From contig NZ_FOGP01000001.1 in assembly GCF_900111255.1 (NCBI RefSeq), forward strand, positions 222,894 to 286,893: 64,000 bases of DNA. The letters are read 5' to 3'. Position 1 is the stretch's first letter. Each line of letters begins with the position of its first letter. Positions 11,315 to 18,432 of this stretch are shown here, piece by piece. The notes beneath the pieces are model-generated. The model was not told where the DNA came from. It saw only the letters and a program-made list of their open reading frames with translations, and searched no databases. Both the position numbers and the translations under genes were made by a program. The stretch comes from Parafannyhessea umbonata (GTDB lineage Bacteria > Actinomycetota > Coriobacteriia > Coriobacteriales > Atopobiaceae).

Positions 11315-12067
11315 CTACGAGTGGTAGCTGCGGAAGAAGGCCTGCGTCTCGGGGTCGGAACTGTTGTCCATGACGTCCTCGGGCGTGCCGTTCTCGGCAA
11401 TCGTGCCGTGGCGCAGCAGCACGATGCGGTCGGCCGCCTTGTGGGCGAAACTCATCTCGTGGGTCGCCATGAGAATTGTGGCACCCTGGTCCTTCAGCTC
11501 GGCAACCATGTCGAGGACCTCGCCGACGAGCAGCGGGTCGAGGGCGGAGGTGATCTCGTCTAGCAGGAGCAGCTCCGGCTCGGTCATGAGGGCGCGGCAG
11601 ATGGCGACGCGCTGCTGCTGGCCGCCAGACAGGCGGTCCGGGTACTCGTTGGCCTTGTGGTCCATGCCGATGCGTTTGAGCAGGCTCATGGCCTTCTTCT
11701 CCGCCTGGGCGCGGTCCCACTTGAATACCTTGCGTGCCGCGAGGGTGACGTTGTTCAGGACGGTCATGTGGGGGAACAGGTTGAACTGCTGGAACACGAC
11801 GCCGATGCGTGCGCGGGCCCTGTCCATGTTGATGCGAGGGTCGGTGATGTCGGTGTCGCTCAGCCAGATCTGGCCGTCGTCGACCTGCTCCAGGAGGTTG
11901 ACGCACTTCATGAGCGTGGACTTGCCGGAGCCCGAGGGACCAAGCAGCGCGACGACCTCGTGCTGCTTGATGTCGAAGGACACATGGTCCAAAACGGTGT
12001 TGCTGCCGAAGCGCTTGCAGACGCCATCCAGGCGCAGGACGGTTTCGGCGGATGCGGACTCGGACAT
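11315..12067 (-). CDS. polar amino-acid ABC transporter ATP-binding protein
   Basis: ATPase of 250 aa that powers uptake with the permease and binding protein upstream. Walker A GPSGSGKSTLMK, Q-loop region VVFQQFNLFPHMTV, signature LSGGQQQRVAICRA, Walker B LLLLDEITSALDP and switch His in ATHEMSFA are all present. The FNLFPHMTV and LDPLLV wording is typical of the glutamine/polar amino-acid (GlnQ-like) family. Its ATG overlaps the permease stop as TAATG, indicating translational coupling. The convergent terminator at 11234-11270 ends the operon. Confidence 0.93.
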   Translation of the reverse strand: MSESASAETVLRLDGVCKRFGSNTVLDHVSFDIKQHEVVALLGPSGSGKSTLMKCVNLLEQVDDGQIWLSDTDITDPRINMDRARARIGVVFQQFNLFPHMTVLNNVTLAARKVFKWDRAQAEKKAMSLLKRIGMDHKANEYPDRLSGGQQQRVAICRALMTEPELLLLDEITSALDPLLVGEVLDMVAELKDQGATILMATHEMSFAHKAADRIVLLRHGTIAENGTPEDVMDNSSDPETQAFFRSYHS

Positions 12068-12924
12068 TAGACAAGACCTCCCGTACGCTCTCGAGAGCGA
12101 AGCTTTGCGGTGTACCAGTCGTTAAGAAGGATGAAGGGGACGCTGAGCAGGATAAACAGGATGCTCGCCACGACGTAGGGCGTGAAGTTGTAGGTCTTGG
12201 CGACGGCAATCTGGGCTGCGCGAACCGCGTCCACGGCACCCAGGGTCGAAATCAGGCCAACGTCCTTCTGCATCGAGATGAAGTCGTTCATCAGGGCAGG
12301 TGCGATCTTGCGGAGCGCCTGCGGGATGATGACCAGGCGCATGGTCTGGCCTGAGGTCAGGCCGAGCGACCTTGCGGAGGCGCGCTGCGAGGGGTGCACG
12401 TCCTGGAATCCCGCGCGCAGAACCTCGGCGATGTAGGCGGAGTAGGACATCACGACGGCCACCGTGCCCAGGATTGCCGGGTCGACGCGGCCAAAGAGGC
12501 CGAGGCCGGGTATGCCGAATCCGATGAGGTAGAGCACGACCAGCATGGGGATGCCGCGCATGACCGTGGTGTAGAACCTCGCGACGACGCGCAGCGGGAA
12601 CATGACCGCCGAGGTGGTGATGCGGATGAGCGCGAGCGCGCCGCCCAGAACAGCGACGCCAATCACTGCGACCACGAGCACGCGGAGGTTGAGCATGAGG
12701 CCGTCGAGGACCTGAGGCCAGGCCTGGGCAAAGTACTCAGCCGAGAAGAACGACTCCTGGACCCTGGGCCAGCCAGGGGAGTTGGAGAGTCCGAAGGCGA
12801 CGAGCCCTACGAAGATGAGCGACGAGGCGATGCTCGTCAGGACAGAGCGTATGCTCTGCTTCTTGCGGTATGCCTGCCGCTCTAGCTCGATGTCACTCGT
12901 GGTGACGGTGGTGCAGTCATTCAT
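12067..12924 (-). CDS. polar amino-acid ABC transporter permease
   Basis: Membrane permease of 285 aa if started at MNDCTTVTT. A hydrophilic N-terminal segment is followed by about five hydrophobic segments. The EAA-type cytoplasmic loop appears as EVLRAGFQDVHPSQRASARSLGL, where the HisM/GlnP family contacts the ATPase. An in-frame ATG at 12966 lies further upstream but neither start has a strong ribosome site; the chosen one has only GAGAAAGAG at some distance. The stop overlaps the ATPase start. The binding-protein gene lies upstream across a hairpin, so this gene is probably read through at lower level. Confidence 0.88.
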   Translation of the reverse strand: MNDCTTVTTSDIELERQAYRKKQSIRSVLTSIASSLIFVGLVAFGLSNSPGWPRVQESFFSAEYFAQAWPQVLDGLMLNLRVLVVAVIGVAVLGGALALIRITTSAVMFPLRVVARFYTTVMRGIPMLVVLYLIGFGIPGLGLFGRVDPAILGTVAVVMSYSAYIAEVLRAGFQDVHPSQRASARSLGLTSGQTMRLVIIPQALRKIAPALMNDFISMQKDVGLISTLGAVDAVRAAQIAVAKTYNFTPYVVASILFILLSVPFILLNDWYTAKLRSRERTGGLV

Positions 12925-12970
12925 GTGGGAAGACTCTTTCTCGTGAGCGTGTAAAACCGTGCGCATACAC

Positions 12971-12999
12971 AATAAAAGGCCGGAGCGTATGCCCCGGCC
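12971..12999 (-). terminator. intra-operon terminator between binding protein and permease
   Basis: On the minus strand GGCCGGGGC-ATAC-GCTCCGGCC (12999 to 12978) is followed by TTTTATT. It lies directly behind the binding-protein stop codon and before the permease. Partial termination here would give excess binding protein over transporter, a common arrangement. Confidence 0.8.
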
Positions 13000-13020
13000 C
13001 CCTAAGTGAATTGGAAACAC

Positions 13021-13908
13021 TTATTTTTCAAGCATCGGGACGTTCGAGGTGTAGTCCGCCAGCCACTCGTCCTGGAGCTTCTTGACGGTGCCGTCGTCGA
13101 TCAGCGCGTTCATCGCGTCGGTGACGAATGGGGTGAGGGGAGAGTCCTTTTTCAGGGTGACGCCGGTGCCCTCAGGATCCTCGGTGCCAGGGATCTGACC
13201 AACGACGATGGCGTTATCTACCTGGCCGGACTCGACCATGTAGACGGCCTCGGGCGTGTCGGTGACGAGCGCGTCGCACTGGCCGGACGTTACGGCCTGA
13301 GCCGCGATGGAGTTGTCGTCGAAGATGCTGATGCCCTCGTCGCTCCCGTCCTTGATCGCGTCCTTGACGTAGTCGCCGGCGGTCGAGCCCACCATGACGG
13401 CGATGTTTGCAGAGGCGAGGTCCTTGCACGACTTCGCGCCTGCATACTTTCCGTCCTTGGGCACGACGACGGACTGGGTCGCGCGGAAGTACGCGGGCGA
13501 GAAGTCGACGGCCTTCTTGCGATCGTCGCTGATGGAGACCTGCTGGATGTTGAGGTCCCAGTTGTGGTCGCCGGGGGCACAGGCCTCGTCGAAGGACGTG
13601 CGGGTCCACACGACCTCGTCCTTGGAGAAGCCCATCTTGTCGGCCAGCGCATATGCGAGCGCGGCCTCGAATCCCTTGCCGGAGTTGGGGTCGTCGCCGA
13701 TGACCCAGGGCTCCCATGCGGGGTCGCCCGTCGCGATGGTGAGCTTGCCCTGCTCGAAGGTCAGCTGCTTGGGGTCTTTCGAGTCTGCTGCAGCGCTGCT
13801 GTCGCTCGACGAACCACCGCAGGCCGCAAGGCCGAGCGTGGCGAGTGTAGAGGCGCAGACGGCGATGGCCTGGCGCCTGTTGAGGTTGGGGTTGGTCGAG
13901 AAGTGCAT
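13021..13908 (-). CDS. amino-acid ABC transporter substrate-binding lipoprotein
   Basis: Binding protein of 295 aa of the bacterial extracellular solute-binding family 3. The N-terminus carries an Arg-Arg (NLNRRQA), a hydrophobic stretch and the lipobox LGLAACGG, giving a lipid-anchored protein outside the membrane after cleavage before Cys. The mature part begins with a Ser-rich linker. Typical motifs: GKGFEAALAYALADKMGF and FSPAYFRATQSVVV. It captures a polar amino acid; which one is not readable. AAGGGAGAAACC precedes the ATG. It is the first gene of the minus-strand operon. Confidence 0.92.
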   Translation of the reverse strand: MHFSTNPNLNRRQAIAVCASTLATLGLAACGGSSSDSSAAADSKDPKQLTFEQGKLTIATGDPAWEPWVIGDDPNSGKGFEAALAYALADKMGFSKDEVVWTRTSFDEACAPGDHNWDLNIQQVSISDDRKKAVDFSPAYFRATQSVVVPKDGKYAGAKSCKDLASANIAVMVGSTAGDYVKDAIKDGSDEGISIFDDNSIAAQAVTSGQCDALVTDTPEAVYMVESGQVDNAIVVGQIPGTEDPEGTGVTLKKDSPLTPFVTDAMNALIDDGTVKKLQDEWLADYTSNVPMLEK

Positions 13909-14155: not shown

Positions 14156-14935
14156 ATGATGCATACCGTTGCGGTTCTGAGTGCCCTGCAAAAGGAGTCG
14201 CTGGCCTTCTTCGAGCTTCCGGGCGAGAAGAGCTTGCGCCATTGCGGCGTGGAGTATGCGGAGCGCGATGTTTCGGGCGTCAGGGTGGTCGCCGCGAACG
14301 GGGGCATGGGGACCATAAACAGCGCGGCGTCAGCCCAGTTCCTCATTGACCGCTTCGGTCCGGATGCCCTCCTGTTCTGCGGAATCGCCGGAAGCCTCAA
14401 TCCCCGCATCGGCCAAGGCGACGTGGTCGTGGGCGCGCGCCTGGAGTGCCTCGACTCCGACATGCAGATCATCGCGGAGTCCGAGCCCAACCTGACAAGC
14501 TTCCCCTCAGACGAGGGACTCGTGAGCCTGGCCCAGGCCGAGCTCGAGTCGCGTGGCTTCGAGCGCGTGCCGTCGGTCGAGCAGATGGGTGGGGAGGTGC
14601 TTGATGCGGCGTATGGCACGCTCGAGCAGCACGAGCCGCGCTTCGTGACGGGCGCCATAGCGACGAGCGACCTGTTTTCGACCGAGCCTGACGTGCTTCG
14701 CAAGGTCCGTAGCCGCTACGCGGCGGACTGCGAGGAGATGGAGGGCGTCGCCGCGGCGCAGGTCGCCGCCCGAGCGGGCATCCCCTTCCTGGCCGTGCGC
14801 TCCATCAGCAATGTGTGCGGAGAGGCCTATGAGGAGCTCGACGGACGTGACGATGACCTTGCCACGACGGCACGCCTCGCGGCCCAGGTGGCTCTGGGCG
14901 TTATTCGCAGGATGCCTGCCCAGAGGCAAGGGTAA
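14156..14935 (+). CDS. MTA/SAH nucleosidase-like protein, Asp-to-Asn variant
   Basis: Nucleoside phosphorylase-superfamily protein of 259 aa, closest in layout to 5'-methylthioadenosine/S-adenosylhomocysteine nucleosidase. The catalytic-water Glu (E14 in SALQKE), the GIAGSL phosphate/ribose region and E196 of CEEMEGVA, which binds ribose hydroxyls, are kept. In adenine-specific MTAN the next key residue is Asp in the RAISD motif; here it is Asn (N219 in RSISN). In the same superfamily Asn at this place goes with 6-oxopurines such as hypoxanthine. So a substrate like S-inosylhomocysteine or another inosine-type nucleoside is possible (inference). GGAGGGG precedes the ATG. Its 3' end overlaps the convergent cupin gene by 35 bases. 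Confidence 0.82.
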   Translation: MMHTVAVLSALQKESLAFFELPGEKSLRHCGVEYAERDVSGVRVVAANGGMGTINSAASAQFLIDRFGPDALLFCGIAGSLNPRIGQGDVVVGARLECLDSDMQIIAESEPNLTSFPSDEGLVSLAQAELESRGFERVPSVEQMGGEVLDAAYGTLEQHEPRFVTGAIATSDLFSTEPDVLRKVRSRYAADCEEMEGVAAAQVAARAGIPFLAVRSISNVCGEAYEELDGRDDDLATTARLAAQVALGVIRRMPAQRQG

Positions 14936-15389
14936 AGCCCGCGTACATGAAGCCGGGGCTCACCATGCACGAGACCAGCGCGTCCTCGTCTGCGGGCACG
15001 GTGCGCTGCCAGACGCCGGCAGGCACCACGAACTGAGTCCGTGCGCCCTTCTCGTCCAGGGAAAGGACAATCCGCTCAACCTGGCTCTCGTCGGGCTCGC
15101 TTCCCGAGCCGGCGATCTCGAGTGTGACGGCGCCGGGTCCGTGCCAGAGCCAGGCCTCGTCGGCGTCCACGACGTGCCAGGCGCTCGCGTCGCCTGCGGG
15201 CAGGAGGAAGTAGATGAGAGACGCCAGGGGACGCCCCTCGGTGGAGTCCTCTCCCATGTTGGTGGCATCGCCCGTCGCGGCGGCGCTTGACTGCCAGGTT
15301 CGGCGGTACCATCCTCCCTCCGGGTGCTTCGCGAGTCCCAGCGAGTCGACCAGGTGCTGGGCGTACGGGCTAATTCCAGATGCGGTCAT
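14901..15389 (-). CDS. cupin protein, DUF985 family
   Basis: Small cupin of 162 aa. The family start SLGLAKHPEGGWYRRTW, the IYFLLPAGDASAWHVVDADEAWLWHGPG core and the C-terminal PGF are typical of DUF985 (cupin_5) proteins, whose biochemical role is not known to me. The chosen ATG (15389) has GAGGGAAG upstream and lies inside the last codons of the deaminase gene, overlapping it by 20 bases, which implies translational coupling. Its stop lies within the end of the convergent nucleosidase gene. The linkage to S-adenosylhomocysteine genes may hint at a role with nucleosides or a sugar product. Confidence 0.82.
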   Translation of the reverse strand: MTASGISPYAQHLVDSLGLAKHPEGGWYRRTWQSSAAATGDATNMGEDSTEGRPLASLIYFLLPAGDASAWHVVDADEAWLWHGPGAVTLEIAGSGSEPDESQVERIVLSLDEKGARTQFVVPAGVWQRTVPADEDALVSCMVSPGFMYAGFTLASGQASCE

Positions 15390-16713
15390 ACACGACACTT
15401 CCCTCGATGATTGTTGCCTTGCAGCTGCCGGACCCATGGCGCACGAACTCCTCGAGCGTGTCCTCGAGCGCCTGCGGAGAAGAGACGTTCACCGGGATGT
15501 CGAAGAACGCCAGGTCCGCGGAGGCGCCCACGTTGATCTGGCCGATGCGCTTGGGGCCGCAGTTGAGTCCCATCGATTCGGCGCCGCCCAGGGTCATCAT
15601 GCGGATGAGCCTGTGCGAGAGGTCCGCTCCCTCGTAGCCCTGCGCGATGGCGAGGTCATACAGGACGGAGACGTCGTCCAGCACGTCGAGGCTCGGACAC
15701 GACGAGAGGGAGTCGGTGCCGACGGAGAGGGGGTTGCCCTCCTCGAGGTAGCGTGCGATGGGCGCGTTCTTCTGGGTGCAGGTGATTCTGTTCGAGCGCG
15801 GGCACAGGGCGACGGAGACGCCGCGCTGGCGCAGGATCCTGCGGTCCTCGCGTGACGCGTGGACGCCATGGGCTATGTGCACGTCGGGCCCGAGTACCGC
15901 AAGCTGGTCCAGGAACTGGATGGCGCTTGCGCCGGCGCCCGCGCGCTTGAGGTCGTTGAAGCCGCTCCACTCCGTGCGGTTCCACGCCCAGGATGTCTGG
16001 TTGGTCAGCTTGGAGGGGAGCTTTCCCGCCTCGGCAGGAGTCTCGCCAAGGTGGACGTGGAGCCTCATGCCCAGTCGACGTGCGATGTCGGGCAGGTCGA
16101 GCAGCGGACCAGATCCGAGCGAGTAGGGGGCATGGGGGCTGATGCCGATCTCGGTGACCCCCATGGACCTGATGACCTCGATCTGGGCCAGCAGGTCCTG
16201 GACGCCCTTGCGCTGCCAGTCCTCGTTGTTCCAGTCCATTACCTCCCAATACGTGATGCCATGCATGCCCTGGGAGGTCAGGGCGTCGGCTGCCTCGAGG
16301 TCAGAGGCGATGTCTGCCGCCGCCGTGGTGCCGGCCTCGACCATCATGCGCGCGCCCTCGTGTGCCCACTCGCGCCAGGGCTTGCGCTCGGGGCTGTCGT
16401 ATATCTTGTTGAAGGCCAGCTCCCAGTCGCGGAAGCTCGGGTAGGTCGATTGGCCGACCGAGGCCATGCCGGTGTACTGGAGGTGCGTGTGCGCGTTGAC
16501 GAGGCCTGGAGTGACAAGGCCGTGCCAGTTCCTGGTCTCGACGTCACCCGCGTCCTTACGGTCGTCGCGCAGCTTCTGCTCGACCCAGTCGCGCGTTCCC
16601 ACGTGGAGAACGCGACCGTCACGCACCGCCACGGCTCCGTCGCAGATGACGGGCCCGGTTACGGGAATGACGAGGGGCGCAGTGTACAGGGTTACCGTTG
16701 CTTTGTCGTTCAT
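15370..16713 (-). CDS. S-adenosylhomocysteine deaminase-type amidohydrolase
   Basis: Amidohydrolase of 447 aa of the SAH/MTA deaminase-chlorohydrolase group. Metal ligands and catalytic residues are visible: NAHTHLQYTGM (HxH), HVHLGETPAE (metal His and catalytic Glu), HGVHASREDRRILRQRGVSVALCPRSN (catalytic His and the family-typical CPxSN), and VGTDSLSS (metal Asp). Such enzymes convert the adenine of SAH, MTA or 5'-deoxyadenosine to hypoxanthine. The ATG at 16713 has TTGGAGC upstream. It sits 54 bases behind the SahH-like gene and overlaps the cupin gene, forming an operon. Confidence 0.87.
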   Translation of the reverse strand: MNDKATVTLYTAPLVIPVTGPVICDGAVAVRDGRVLHVGTRDWVEQKLRDDRKDAGDVETRNWHGLVTPGLVNAHTHLQYTGMASVGQSTYPSFRDWELAFNKIYDSPERKPWREWAHEGARMMVEAGTTAAADIASDLEAADALTSQGMHGITYWEVMDWNNEDWQRKGVQDLLAQIEVIRSMGVTEIGISPHAPYSLGSGPLLDLPDIARRLGMRLHVHLGETPAEAGKLPSKLTNQTSWAWNRTEWSGFNDLKRAGAGASAIQFLDQLAVLGPDVHIAHGVHASREDRRILRQRGVSVALCPRSNRITCTQKNAPIARYLEEGNPLSVGTDSLSSCPSLDVLDDVSVLYDLAIAQGYEGADLSHRLIRMMTLGGAESMGLNCGPKRIGQINVGASADLAFFDIPVNVSSPQALEDTLEEFVRHGSGSCKATIIEGSVVYDRIWN

Positions 16714-16767
16714 TGCTTGCTCCAAGGTGCCGCGAGGGCGGTGTTGCGTATTGGGATGCGGGAGGCG

Positions 16768-18099
16768 CTACTCCTGCGTGATGGCGTCCGAGTAGTGCGT
16801 TACGCGCCAGTCGGGGACGAGGGGCTTCTCCTGCTGCTCGACGTCGATCGAGATGCCGCGCGCGGCAAGCGCCAGGCTCGCGATGCGCCTGTCGGTATCG
16901 GGTCCCAGGCGGTGCACGCCGACCGGCAGCTTATCGCCGCTGACGATGCGGTCGACCGCGCACAGCTGGACCGCGAAGCTGAGGTCCATGATCTGGATGG
17001 GGTTGCCGGGTCCGGCTGCGTAGTTCACACCGTCGCCGGCCGCGAGCAGTCGAAGGCGGCGCCCGTTGGGAAGGGCGAGCGAGAAGATCCTCTTGTCCTT
17101 CTCCGGACGTAGGGACCCGCCCGTCTGGATGACCTCGTCGAGGGCGATCTCGTTCTGGATGCCGCCTATGACGACGACGGCCGCGCCCTCTCGAAGGGTC
17201 TGAAGCGCGTCGAGGGCGAGCGTGTGGCGCACTCCTGTCGCGGACACGACCACGTCTGCGTCGTGCAGGACGTCAGACTGGGTGGCCACCTCGAAGCCCG
17301 CGAAGCGCGCCTCGAGCGCCTTGACGGGGTCCGTCTCGACAATGGCGACGCGCGCACCCAGCGTGCGGACGCGCCGCGCGAAGCCCTCGCCCACGGGGCC
17401 GTAGCCGATGACGCACACGCTCACGTCTGGTGAGCTGAGGGCGTCGGGGCCCAGGAGCTCCATCGTCGTGCTGACGCAGGTCTCTCCCGTGCCGTGGCGG
17501 TTGTCGAAGCAGGTCTTGAGTGCAGAGTCGTTCACCGCTATGACGGGGAAGGGGAGCTCGCCCTCATCGGCCATGGCCTGAAATGCGCGCACCCCGGAGG
17601 TCGTCTCCTCGGCGATGCCCCTGACGTTGGCGACGAGCTCGGGCCGCTCCATCACCAGGAGTCGCGCGAAGTTCGCACCATCGTCGATTATCAGGTCGGG
17701 CTTGAGCCTGTCCATGAGGCGAAGCGCCCCCTCGTGCTCCTGCGCAGGGGTCCACGTGCTGTTGGCCTCGATGATGTGGCCGCGTGCGGCGAGCTCGTCG
17801 GCTACGCGCTGGTCGCACTCGTGAGCGTGGCAGTAGACTCCGACGTTTGCGCCGGCAGCCGCCAGACGCTCCACCAGGACGGCAGTCTTTGGCTCGACGA
17901 TGAGGCTGAGGGCGATGCTCATGCCCCTGAGCTTGCCTGACTTGGCAATCTGGTTGGCGAGTGCGGCCGAGACAGACATGCCCTTCTCGGCACGTGCGAG
18001 CATTTGGGCGCCCGTGAGGTTCTCGTGCGCGGGAAGCTCGGGGTACAAGAAGTCAGCGGCCTCTCTCTTGTCAGTGGGCACCAGGCCCCATTCGGCCAT
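16768..18099 (-). CDS. adenosylhomocysteinase-like protein with altered active site
   Basis: S-adenosylhomocysteine hydrolase homologue of 443 aa. Kept: DDG (139-141), EETTSGV (E164/E165), VNDSALKTCFDN with K195 and D199, the NAD-binding GYGPVGEG and late MDLSFAVQ. Changed, by eye against human AHCY: His55 is Ile67 (SLIVEPKTAVL instead of CLHMTxxTAVL), His301 is Gly313 (IGGIQNEI instead of IGHFDVEI), His353 is Asn366 (GNP instead of GHP). The C-terminal KPDHYRY tail is absent. This suggests a different substrate, for example S-inosylhomocysteine made by the neighbouring deaminase (inference). The start is uncertain: coding-like sequence extends upstream without any ATG, GTG or TTG. Confidence 0.8.
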   Translation of the reverse strand: MAEWGLVPTDKREAADFLYPELPAHENLTGAQMLARAEKGMSVSAALANQIAKSGKLRGMSIALSLIVEPKTAVLVERLAAAGANVGVYCHAHECDQRVADELAARGHIIEANSTWTPAQEHEGALRLMDRLKPDLIIDDGANFARLLVMERPELVANVRGIAEETTSGVRAFQAMADEGELPFPVIAVNDSALKTCFDNRHGTGETCVSTTMELLGPDALSSPDVSVCVIGYGPVGEGFARRVRTLGARVAIVETDPVKALEARFAGFEVATQSDVLHDADVVVSATGVRHTLALDALQTLREGAAVVVIGGIQNEIALDEVIQTGGSLRPEKDKRIFSLALPNGRRLRLLAAGDGVNYAAGPGNPIQIMDLSFAVQLCAVDRIVSGDKLPVGVHRLGPDTDRRIASLALAARGISIDVEQQEKPLVPDWRVTHYSDAITQE

Positions 18100-18432
18100 G
18101 CGCAGCGGCAGCGTCGGGTCCGCCTTCGCCAGTGAGTCGGGTGAGATGTAGACCCGTGCGCCGGCAAGTGATGCGTTCGTTTCCTGCGCCCATGCGCAGA
18201 TCCAGGTGGAGAAGGTGTTCGTAATGACCTCGCTTCGAAGTGTCTCGTATGTTTCGCAGGCCCATCATAGGCCATGGGCACAGGGCGGGACCGCGTTGCC
18301 CGCATCGTGAAATTTGTTGTTCAAATCGCGTTGGCTACAGGTACGGTGCCGTTTGGGATGATCTTGCAGCCCATGAAAAAAGCCCCGCTTCGCAAGATGC
18401 GAGGCGGGGCCCATGAGAATATGCAGCCAGGT
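18100..18432 (-). other. 333-base gap between SahH-like and pyruvate kinase genes
   Basis: From 18100 to about 18246 the SahH frame stays open on the minus strand with GC-rich third positions (reading VYISPDSLAKADPTLPLR before the chosen Met), though no standard start codon is found. The rest holds the pyruvate kinase terminator. Nothing else recognised. Confidence 0.5.
18376..18410 (-). terminator. terminator after pyruvate kinase
   Basis: On the minus strand GCCCCGC...GCGGGGC (18410-18404 with 18388-18382) with an inner CGC/GCG pairing is followed by six T (complement of 18376-18381). It lies just behind the pyk stop codon. Confidence 0.85.

Follow-up and report, generated by a model that had tools for sequence, protein, structure and literature searches.

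A deamination-first pathway, in which a DadD-type deaminase is paired with an S-inosylhomocysteine hydrolase (SIHH), is known from methanogens and Thermotoga. Another homologue of the SAH hydrolase SahH, AHCYL1/IRBIT, is regarded as not being a SAH hydrolase. In the mouse SahH, Lys186 and Thr157 hold the 3'-OH of the nucleoside, Glu156 and Asp190 hold the 2'-OH and Asp131 acts at C4'; His55 functions as the base towards the water at C5', the intermediate is stabilised by His301, which is also the gate of the channel, and His353 contacts the nucleobase by its main chain only (PMC4647836). It is reported that the HxExK motif marks S-inosylhomocysteine-preferring enzymes (PMC10978960), and that an Asn to Asp change in PNP (N243D) adds adenosine activity (PMC6274182).

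In the locus of this study, a deaminase-type gene likewise adjoins a SahH homologue, here called SahX, and in relatives an orthodox-looking amiC-sahC pair adjoins the same importer. The locus differs from the DadD and SIHH pathway in that its deaminase has about 26% identity to amiC, an importer is attached, and SahX, a hypoxanthine-type nucleosidase and a cupin stand in place of the hydrolase. Compared with SIHH and the HxExK SahH enzymes (MJ1388, PfuSAHH, TmSAHH), SahX shares the fold, the NAD domain, the ExK pair that binds the base, and the residues D131, E156, K186 and D190, but it shows about 30–37% identity to them, has an N-terminal extension, and differs at the three histidines and at the channel gate. 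Like AHCYL1/IRBIT, SahX is a SahH homologue that may not act as a SAH hydrolase, but it is bacterial and operonic with a deaminase. The nucleosidase shares the PNP fold and the catalytic Glu residues with MTAN and MqnB and has the MqnB-like Asn, but it scores below the cut-offs of both families, is encoded next to the importer or the module wherever its locus was examined, and occurs where the menaquinone pathway was not found. We hold with about even confidence that the genes serve to salvage imported SAM/SAH-type S-nucleosyl amino acids, which would be deaminated first.

Gene layout and the housekeeping SAH route

The window, the whole stretch of 64,000 nucleotides that was analysed, is part of contig 3 of a 2.06-Mb genome of the Atopobiaceae (Coriobacteriia). 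The genes concerned are the following.

11315–12067, minus strand: ABC transporter ATPase, amino-acid type (PF00005)
12067–13020, minus strand: ABC transporter permease (PF00528)
13021–13908, minus strand: substrate-binding lipoprotein, SBP_bac_3, polar amino-acid/opine type (PF00497)
14156–14935, plus strand: nucleosidase (nuc), PNP family (PF01048)
14901–15389, minus strand: cupin (cup), DUF985/Cupin_5, 162 aa (PF06172)
15370–16725, minus strand: amidohydrolase (ami), cog0402-type, predicted deaminase (PF01979; alternative ATG start 16713)
16768–18222, minus strand: SahX, SahH/SIHH paralogue (PF00670 and PF05221; first ATG 18099)

The initial annotation had placed a nucleosidase, an amidohydrolase, a DUF985 cupin and a SahH-like protein within 14156–18099, and Pfam matches confirmed these families; the cupin, for example, scored 135 bits on PF06172 against a gathering score of 25. 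The proposal that the last three genes form one operon was also borne out, as cup, ami and sahX all lie on the minus strand and overlap or are less than 60 bp apart. The nuc gene is convergent with cup, with a 35-bp overlap, and the ABC transporter (11315–13908) lies directly left of nuc and divergent from it. The module reaches leftward to this transporter, and the importer had been absent from the initial annotation.

Two gene starts were revised. The cupin probably starts at the ATG at 15389 rather than at 15437, as its orthologues begin at this Met although the frame is open to 15437. The frame of SahX is conserved for about 41 residues upstream of the first ATG (18099–18228, minus strand), with no in-frame ATG, GTG or TTG there. 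An ACG in the window and in the g9 genomes sits near the ATG of the g7 and g19 orthologues, behind a GAGG/GGAGG-like site. The conserved extension makes it probable that the N terminus is about 41 residues longer than a start at 18099, as assumed earlier, would give, with a non-standard start at ACG 18222 or ATT 18225.

The metal ligands of the amidohydrolase (H79, H81, H225, H286, D338) were invariant in an alignment of 10 sequences that took in orthologues from G585, a genome of another Actinomycetota class (40% identity), and from a plasmid described below (38%). It thus belongs to the cog0402 family (PF01979) and carries the metal ligands, as a DadD-type deaminase requires. It scored 106 and 51 bits on NF005557 and NF012037, far below the cut-offs of 522 and 779, so it is not assignable as a SAH deaminase over other cog0402 members. 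Its AlphaFold model (pLDDT 39) was too poor to be used. Of 140 family genomes, 12, the window counted, carry an amidohydrolase orthologue with 65% identity or more, and SahX adjoins it in 11 of these 12; in G350, both contigs with this orthologue are cut.

The genome of the window encodes a canonical MTAN followed by LuxS, and no SahH besides SahX was found in it. The module is therefore unneeded for housekeeping SAH disposal, and its role is probably salvage. The suggestion that it serves as the SAH disposal route of the cell, against which the initial annotation had itself named a second canonical SahH/MTAN pathway, is not supported. Each nuc-bearing module genome that was tested (g1, g9, g7, g132) encodes LuxS, and LuxS is missing from g19, the SahX genomes in which a canonical SahH is retained. 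This pattern fits nuc replacing the hydrolase, because LuxS would finish the nuc product. In g9, luxS-mtn lies directly next to sahX and diverges from it. No SAM/SAH riboswitch was detected by Rfam upstream of the genes in the window region or at 16 related loci, and a literature search returned nothing uniting adenosylhomocysteinase, amidohydrolase, operon and nucleoside hydrolase.

Residues, phylogeny and distribution of SahX

An alignment was made of the SahX orthologues, 16 canonical SahH from Coriobacteriia and two enzymes of solved structure. SahX of the window carries Ile67, Gly313 and Asn366 at the positions of human His55, His301 and His353, and the loss of three active-site histidines, noticed in the initial annotation, turned out to be fixed in 13/13 members of the SahX clade (His55 to Ile or Val, His301 to Gly, with one Met, and His353 to Asn). 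All three are retained in the 16 canonical sequences. The loss of His353 is less telling than that of His55 and His301, because it acts via its main chain only. The two histidines that an SIHH uses for catalysis are accordingly replaced (I67, G313), the full HxExK fingerprint is broken by the Ile or Val at the motif His in all members, and the gate Phe302 is also lost, leaving a Gly-Ile gate. SahX retains D140, E165, T166, K195 and D199 (D131, E156, T157, K186 and D190 of the mouse enzyme) as well as E69 and K71, the ExK of HxExK, and all of these are invariant across the clade; the C3' redox and C4' residues and the NAD Rossmann domain (PF00670) of an SIHH are thus in place. A new histidine, H202, is invariant in Atopobiaceae SahX and is Tyr in the plasmid member. 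This conservation suggests that SahX has lost the 5' chemistry and kept the residues that bind hypoxanthine, support redox at C3' and transfer the proton at C4'. It is unlikely that SahX is an ordinary S-inosylhomocysteine hydrolase, as had been supposed for the SahH-like protein, since the side chains for the 5' leaving group and water (His55, His301) are missing. The predicted structure of SahX (pLDDT 77) has the SahH fold with best matches to TmSAHH and PfuSAHH at an rmsd of about 10 Å, and its domains are packed too uncertainly for the geometry of the active site to be read from it.

A search of 297 other Coriobacteriia genomes recovered SahX from 7, each of them in the family of the window. 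On the question raised earlier of whether the cluster is conserved across Coriobacteriia, SahX was confined to this one family among the genomes searched. Canonical SahH is encoded in about 120 other Coriobacteriia genomes; among the 16 aligned, 12 have HxTxE and four HxExK (G222, G238, G292, G251), and all four HxExK genes lie near the amidohydrolase gene amiC. Outside Coriobacteriia, two records carry SahX in a paired form, one from a further class of Actinomycetota and one a plasmid from a proteobacterium. In the former, G585, the order is an SBP3 ABC transporter, SahH-A (canonical), SahH-B (SahX type) and ami. The latter, from 'Roseateles sp. XES5' (734 kb; a record marked unverified), encodes SahH-A and SahH-B together with an amidohydrolase, a CUT1 transporter and an inosine-uridine nucleoside hydrolase. 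The tandem genes overlap by 4 bp in both, and SahH-A is a canonical HxExK SahH in each, the SahX type coming second. The SahX paralogue clade and its tandem arrangement with canonical SahH were absent from the initial annotation. A LacI-family regulator gene lies upstream of the plasmid operon (L166 7552–17608) and divergent from it. The arrangement resembles that of an inducible operon for the catabolism of nucleoside thioethers.

In a tree made with the diagnostic columns removed, 13 of 13 SahX sequences fell on one side of a branch with support 100/99, to be read with caution in view of long branches. On this phylogeny, SahX is an old, monophyletic SahH paralogue. The dN/dS values (NG86) were 0.14–0.35 for SahX, 0.07–0.19 for ami and 0.02 for canonical SahH (one shared pair), and within the same genomes 0.175 for SahX versus 0.022 for canonical SahH. 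By these ratios SahX is under constraint, weaker than that of its neighbours.

Degenerate SahH paralogues of a separate family were also seen in Rubrobacteraceae-like genomes (L172–L190) and at L168 7899–9164, with His55 replaced by Pro (once Ala), His301 by Gly or Ala, and His353 retained. In some cases (e.g., G397), the genome also encodes a second SahH whose histidines are intact. The Pro/Gly/His proteins of Rubrobacter were considered as SahX and not counted in the system, because they form a separate clade and no orthologue of the deaminase or importer was found alongside.

The NCBIfam model NF004009, whose name 'adenosylhomocysteinase' implies a SAH hydrolase, scored 577 bits on the SahX of G238 (cut-off 485) and 471 bits on that of the window, although the members found here are without the catalytic histidines. 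NF004009 appears to describe the SahX clade.

Predicted specificity of the nucleosidase and genomic company of the importer

Asn219 of the nucleosidase (codon 14810–14812) aligns with Asp197 of the E. coli MTAN. The initial annotation had pointed to Asn in place of the Asp of adenine-specific nucleosidases, and this Asn is in fact invariant in all orthologues found (8/8), with Asp in all canonical MTANs compared. The same Asn is present in three futalosine hydrolases above the curated cut-off (L103–L105). The catalytic Glu residues of MTAN are retained, and the score on TIGR03664 was 79.3 bits against a cut-off of 124.7. The nucleosidase thus lacks the adenine-site Asp of MTAN and has the Asn of MqnB, and because of this match to futalosine hydrolases it is predicted to be hypoxanthine (6-oxopurine) specific.

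An orthologue of the binding protein was found in 33 of 140 family genomes. We examined 30 importer loci, 29 from the family of the window (the window counted) and one from G585, and in all 30 at least one of the genes nuc, ami, sahX, amiC, sahC and SAM_HAT (SAM hydroxide adenosyltransferase) is no more than 6 kb away; this is a raw count over loci from few genera that are phylogenetically clustered and not independent. Because of this linkage, the importer may be taken to handle SAM/SAH-type compounds. ATPase orthologues of about 79–85% identity adjoin SAM/SAH enzymes in relatives. The binding protein keeps an Arg (..ISDDRKK..) in 9/9 aligned orthologues and an Asp (..VTDTPE..) in 8/9; in the SBP_bac_3 family, these two residues bind the alpha-carboxylate and the alpha-amino group of the ligand. 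SAM hydroxide adenosyltransferase genes adjoin the importer in several Atopobiaceae (L115, L245, L237, L249–L251, L253, L254), which suggests a SAM-type importer.

The two genomes G181 and G326 of one genus are sister species and syntenic in both flanks (luxS, an AI-2E-type gene and the ABC operon; SAM_HAT genes), and next to their common ABC operon G326 carries amiC-sahC and G181 carries nuc in its place, with no deaminase linked to it. As nuc occupies the place of this pair, we infer that it can stand in for the deaminase plus the hydrolase. In relatives, a DadD-like deaminase and an HxExK SahH, the pair of the methanogen-type deamination-first pathway, adjoin the same importer. Since the importer is accompanied by amiC-sahC in some genomes and by SAM hydroxide adenosyltransferase in others, differing enzyme sets appear to serve one imported substrate class across relatives. 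The importer orthologue was not found in the g7 genomes that carry nuc-cup-ami-sahX, and on the plasmid its place is taken by a CUT1 importer of the sugar type, so the transporter type varies.

Proposed salvage route and other readings

The interpretation in the initial annotation is partly supported, and its deamination-first, inosine-type idea gains from three independent lines: the MqnB-like Asn, the ExK of SahX and the importer linkage. The co-transcribed deaminase-type gene also agrees with it. What was observed is gene content, residue conservation, synteny and phylogeny, and from these we infer every substrate and reaction. In the salvage route that we propose, the amino-acid-type ABC importer would take up SAH, SIH or a close analogue, as its linkage suggests. 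The amidohydrolase would then deaminate the adenine to hypoxanthine, in view of its family and co-transcription, and the nucleosidase, with its futalosine hydrolase-like Asn219, would remove hypoxanthine to leave an S-ribosyl product such as S-ribosylhomocysteine. LuxS of the cell would convert S-ribosylhomocysteine to homocysteine, and nucleosidase plus LuxS would take the place of the hydrolase. SahX may bind the same inosine-type nucleoside with NAD+; from its conserved residues it would oxidise C3' and move the C4' proton, with no standard acid-base-assisted release or hydration at C5'. As the C3' and C4' residues are kept and the C5' side chains are lost, SahX would be either an enzyme that performs altered chemistry with the deaminated compound or a binding or partner protein, and we lean to the former. 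Tentatively, it could be a new class, a NAD-dependent nucleoside C3'-oxidoreductase/C5'-lyase whose substrate would be a deaminated compound of the SAM/SAH type and which would do without acid-base assistance at C5'. Such an enzyme might, for example, eliminate methionine, a good leaving group, from a deaminated sulfonium, and its product would feed the hypoxanthine-specific nucleosidase.

It is possible, and we regard it as no stronger than that, that SahX is a pseudoenzyme, an IRBIT-like regulatory or structural partner that was once hetero-oligomeric with canonical SahH. The tandem genes with 4-bp overlaps in G585 and on the plasmid, the lost histidines and the relaxed but purifying dN/dS agree with this. 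However, SahX persists with the deaminase in g1, g9 and g7, where canonical SahH was not found, and the equivalents of K186, D190, E156 and D131 and the ExK pair, needless for a pure scaffold, are invariant over a long divergence.

Somewhat more doubtful is a module that degrades another imported nucleoside, such as a nucleoside antibiotic or a 5'-modified adenosine, instead of a SAM/SAH compound. The differences in transporter type among lineages, the inosine-uridine nucleoside hydrolase of the plasmid operon and the opened gate of SahX, which could admit larger 5' groups, would suit it, but the genes linked to the importer are of the SAM/SAH type, SAM hydroxide adenosyltransferase included.

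We consider it unlikely that SahX is a true S-inosylhomocysteine hydrolase working through other residues, with the cluster amounting to the methanogen pathway. The retained ExK pair, NAD domain and 2', 3' and C4' residues would be expected of such an enzyme, and the predicted fold nearest to TmSAHH and PfuSAHH is consistent with it; H202 could be a substitute, but it is Tyr in the plasmid member. Moreover, His55, His301 and Phe302 are gone throughout the clade, the canonical SahH next to SahX elsewhere could do the job, the nucleosidase would be redundant, and SahX evolves faster than canonical SahH.

A futalosine-type (menaquinone) pathway, with the amidohydrolase as aminofutalosine deaminase and the nucleosidase as futalosine hydrolase, was rejected as very improbable: the nucleosidase has the MqnB Asn and its 79 bits on TIGR03664, and the amidohydrolase aligns in a single stretch to DR_0824, which we take to be an aminofutalosine deaminase, but both fall under the curated cut-offs, the synteny is with SAM/SAH genes, and no MqnA/MqnD was found in the genome, where the sole PF02621 match (25.5 bits, below the cut-off) resembles an ABC-transporter binding protein (L036).

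Taken together, the data point to a route in Coriobacteriia by which SAM/SAH-type compounds are imported and salvaged and provide a candidate for the importer, and they define a SahH paralogue family that is annotated as adenosylhomocysteinase yet is without the residues for that reaction.
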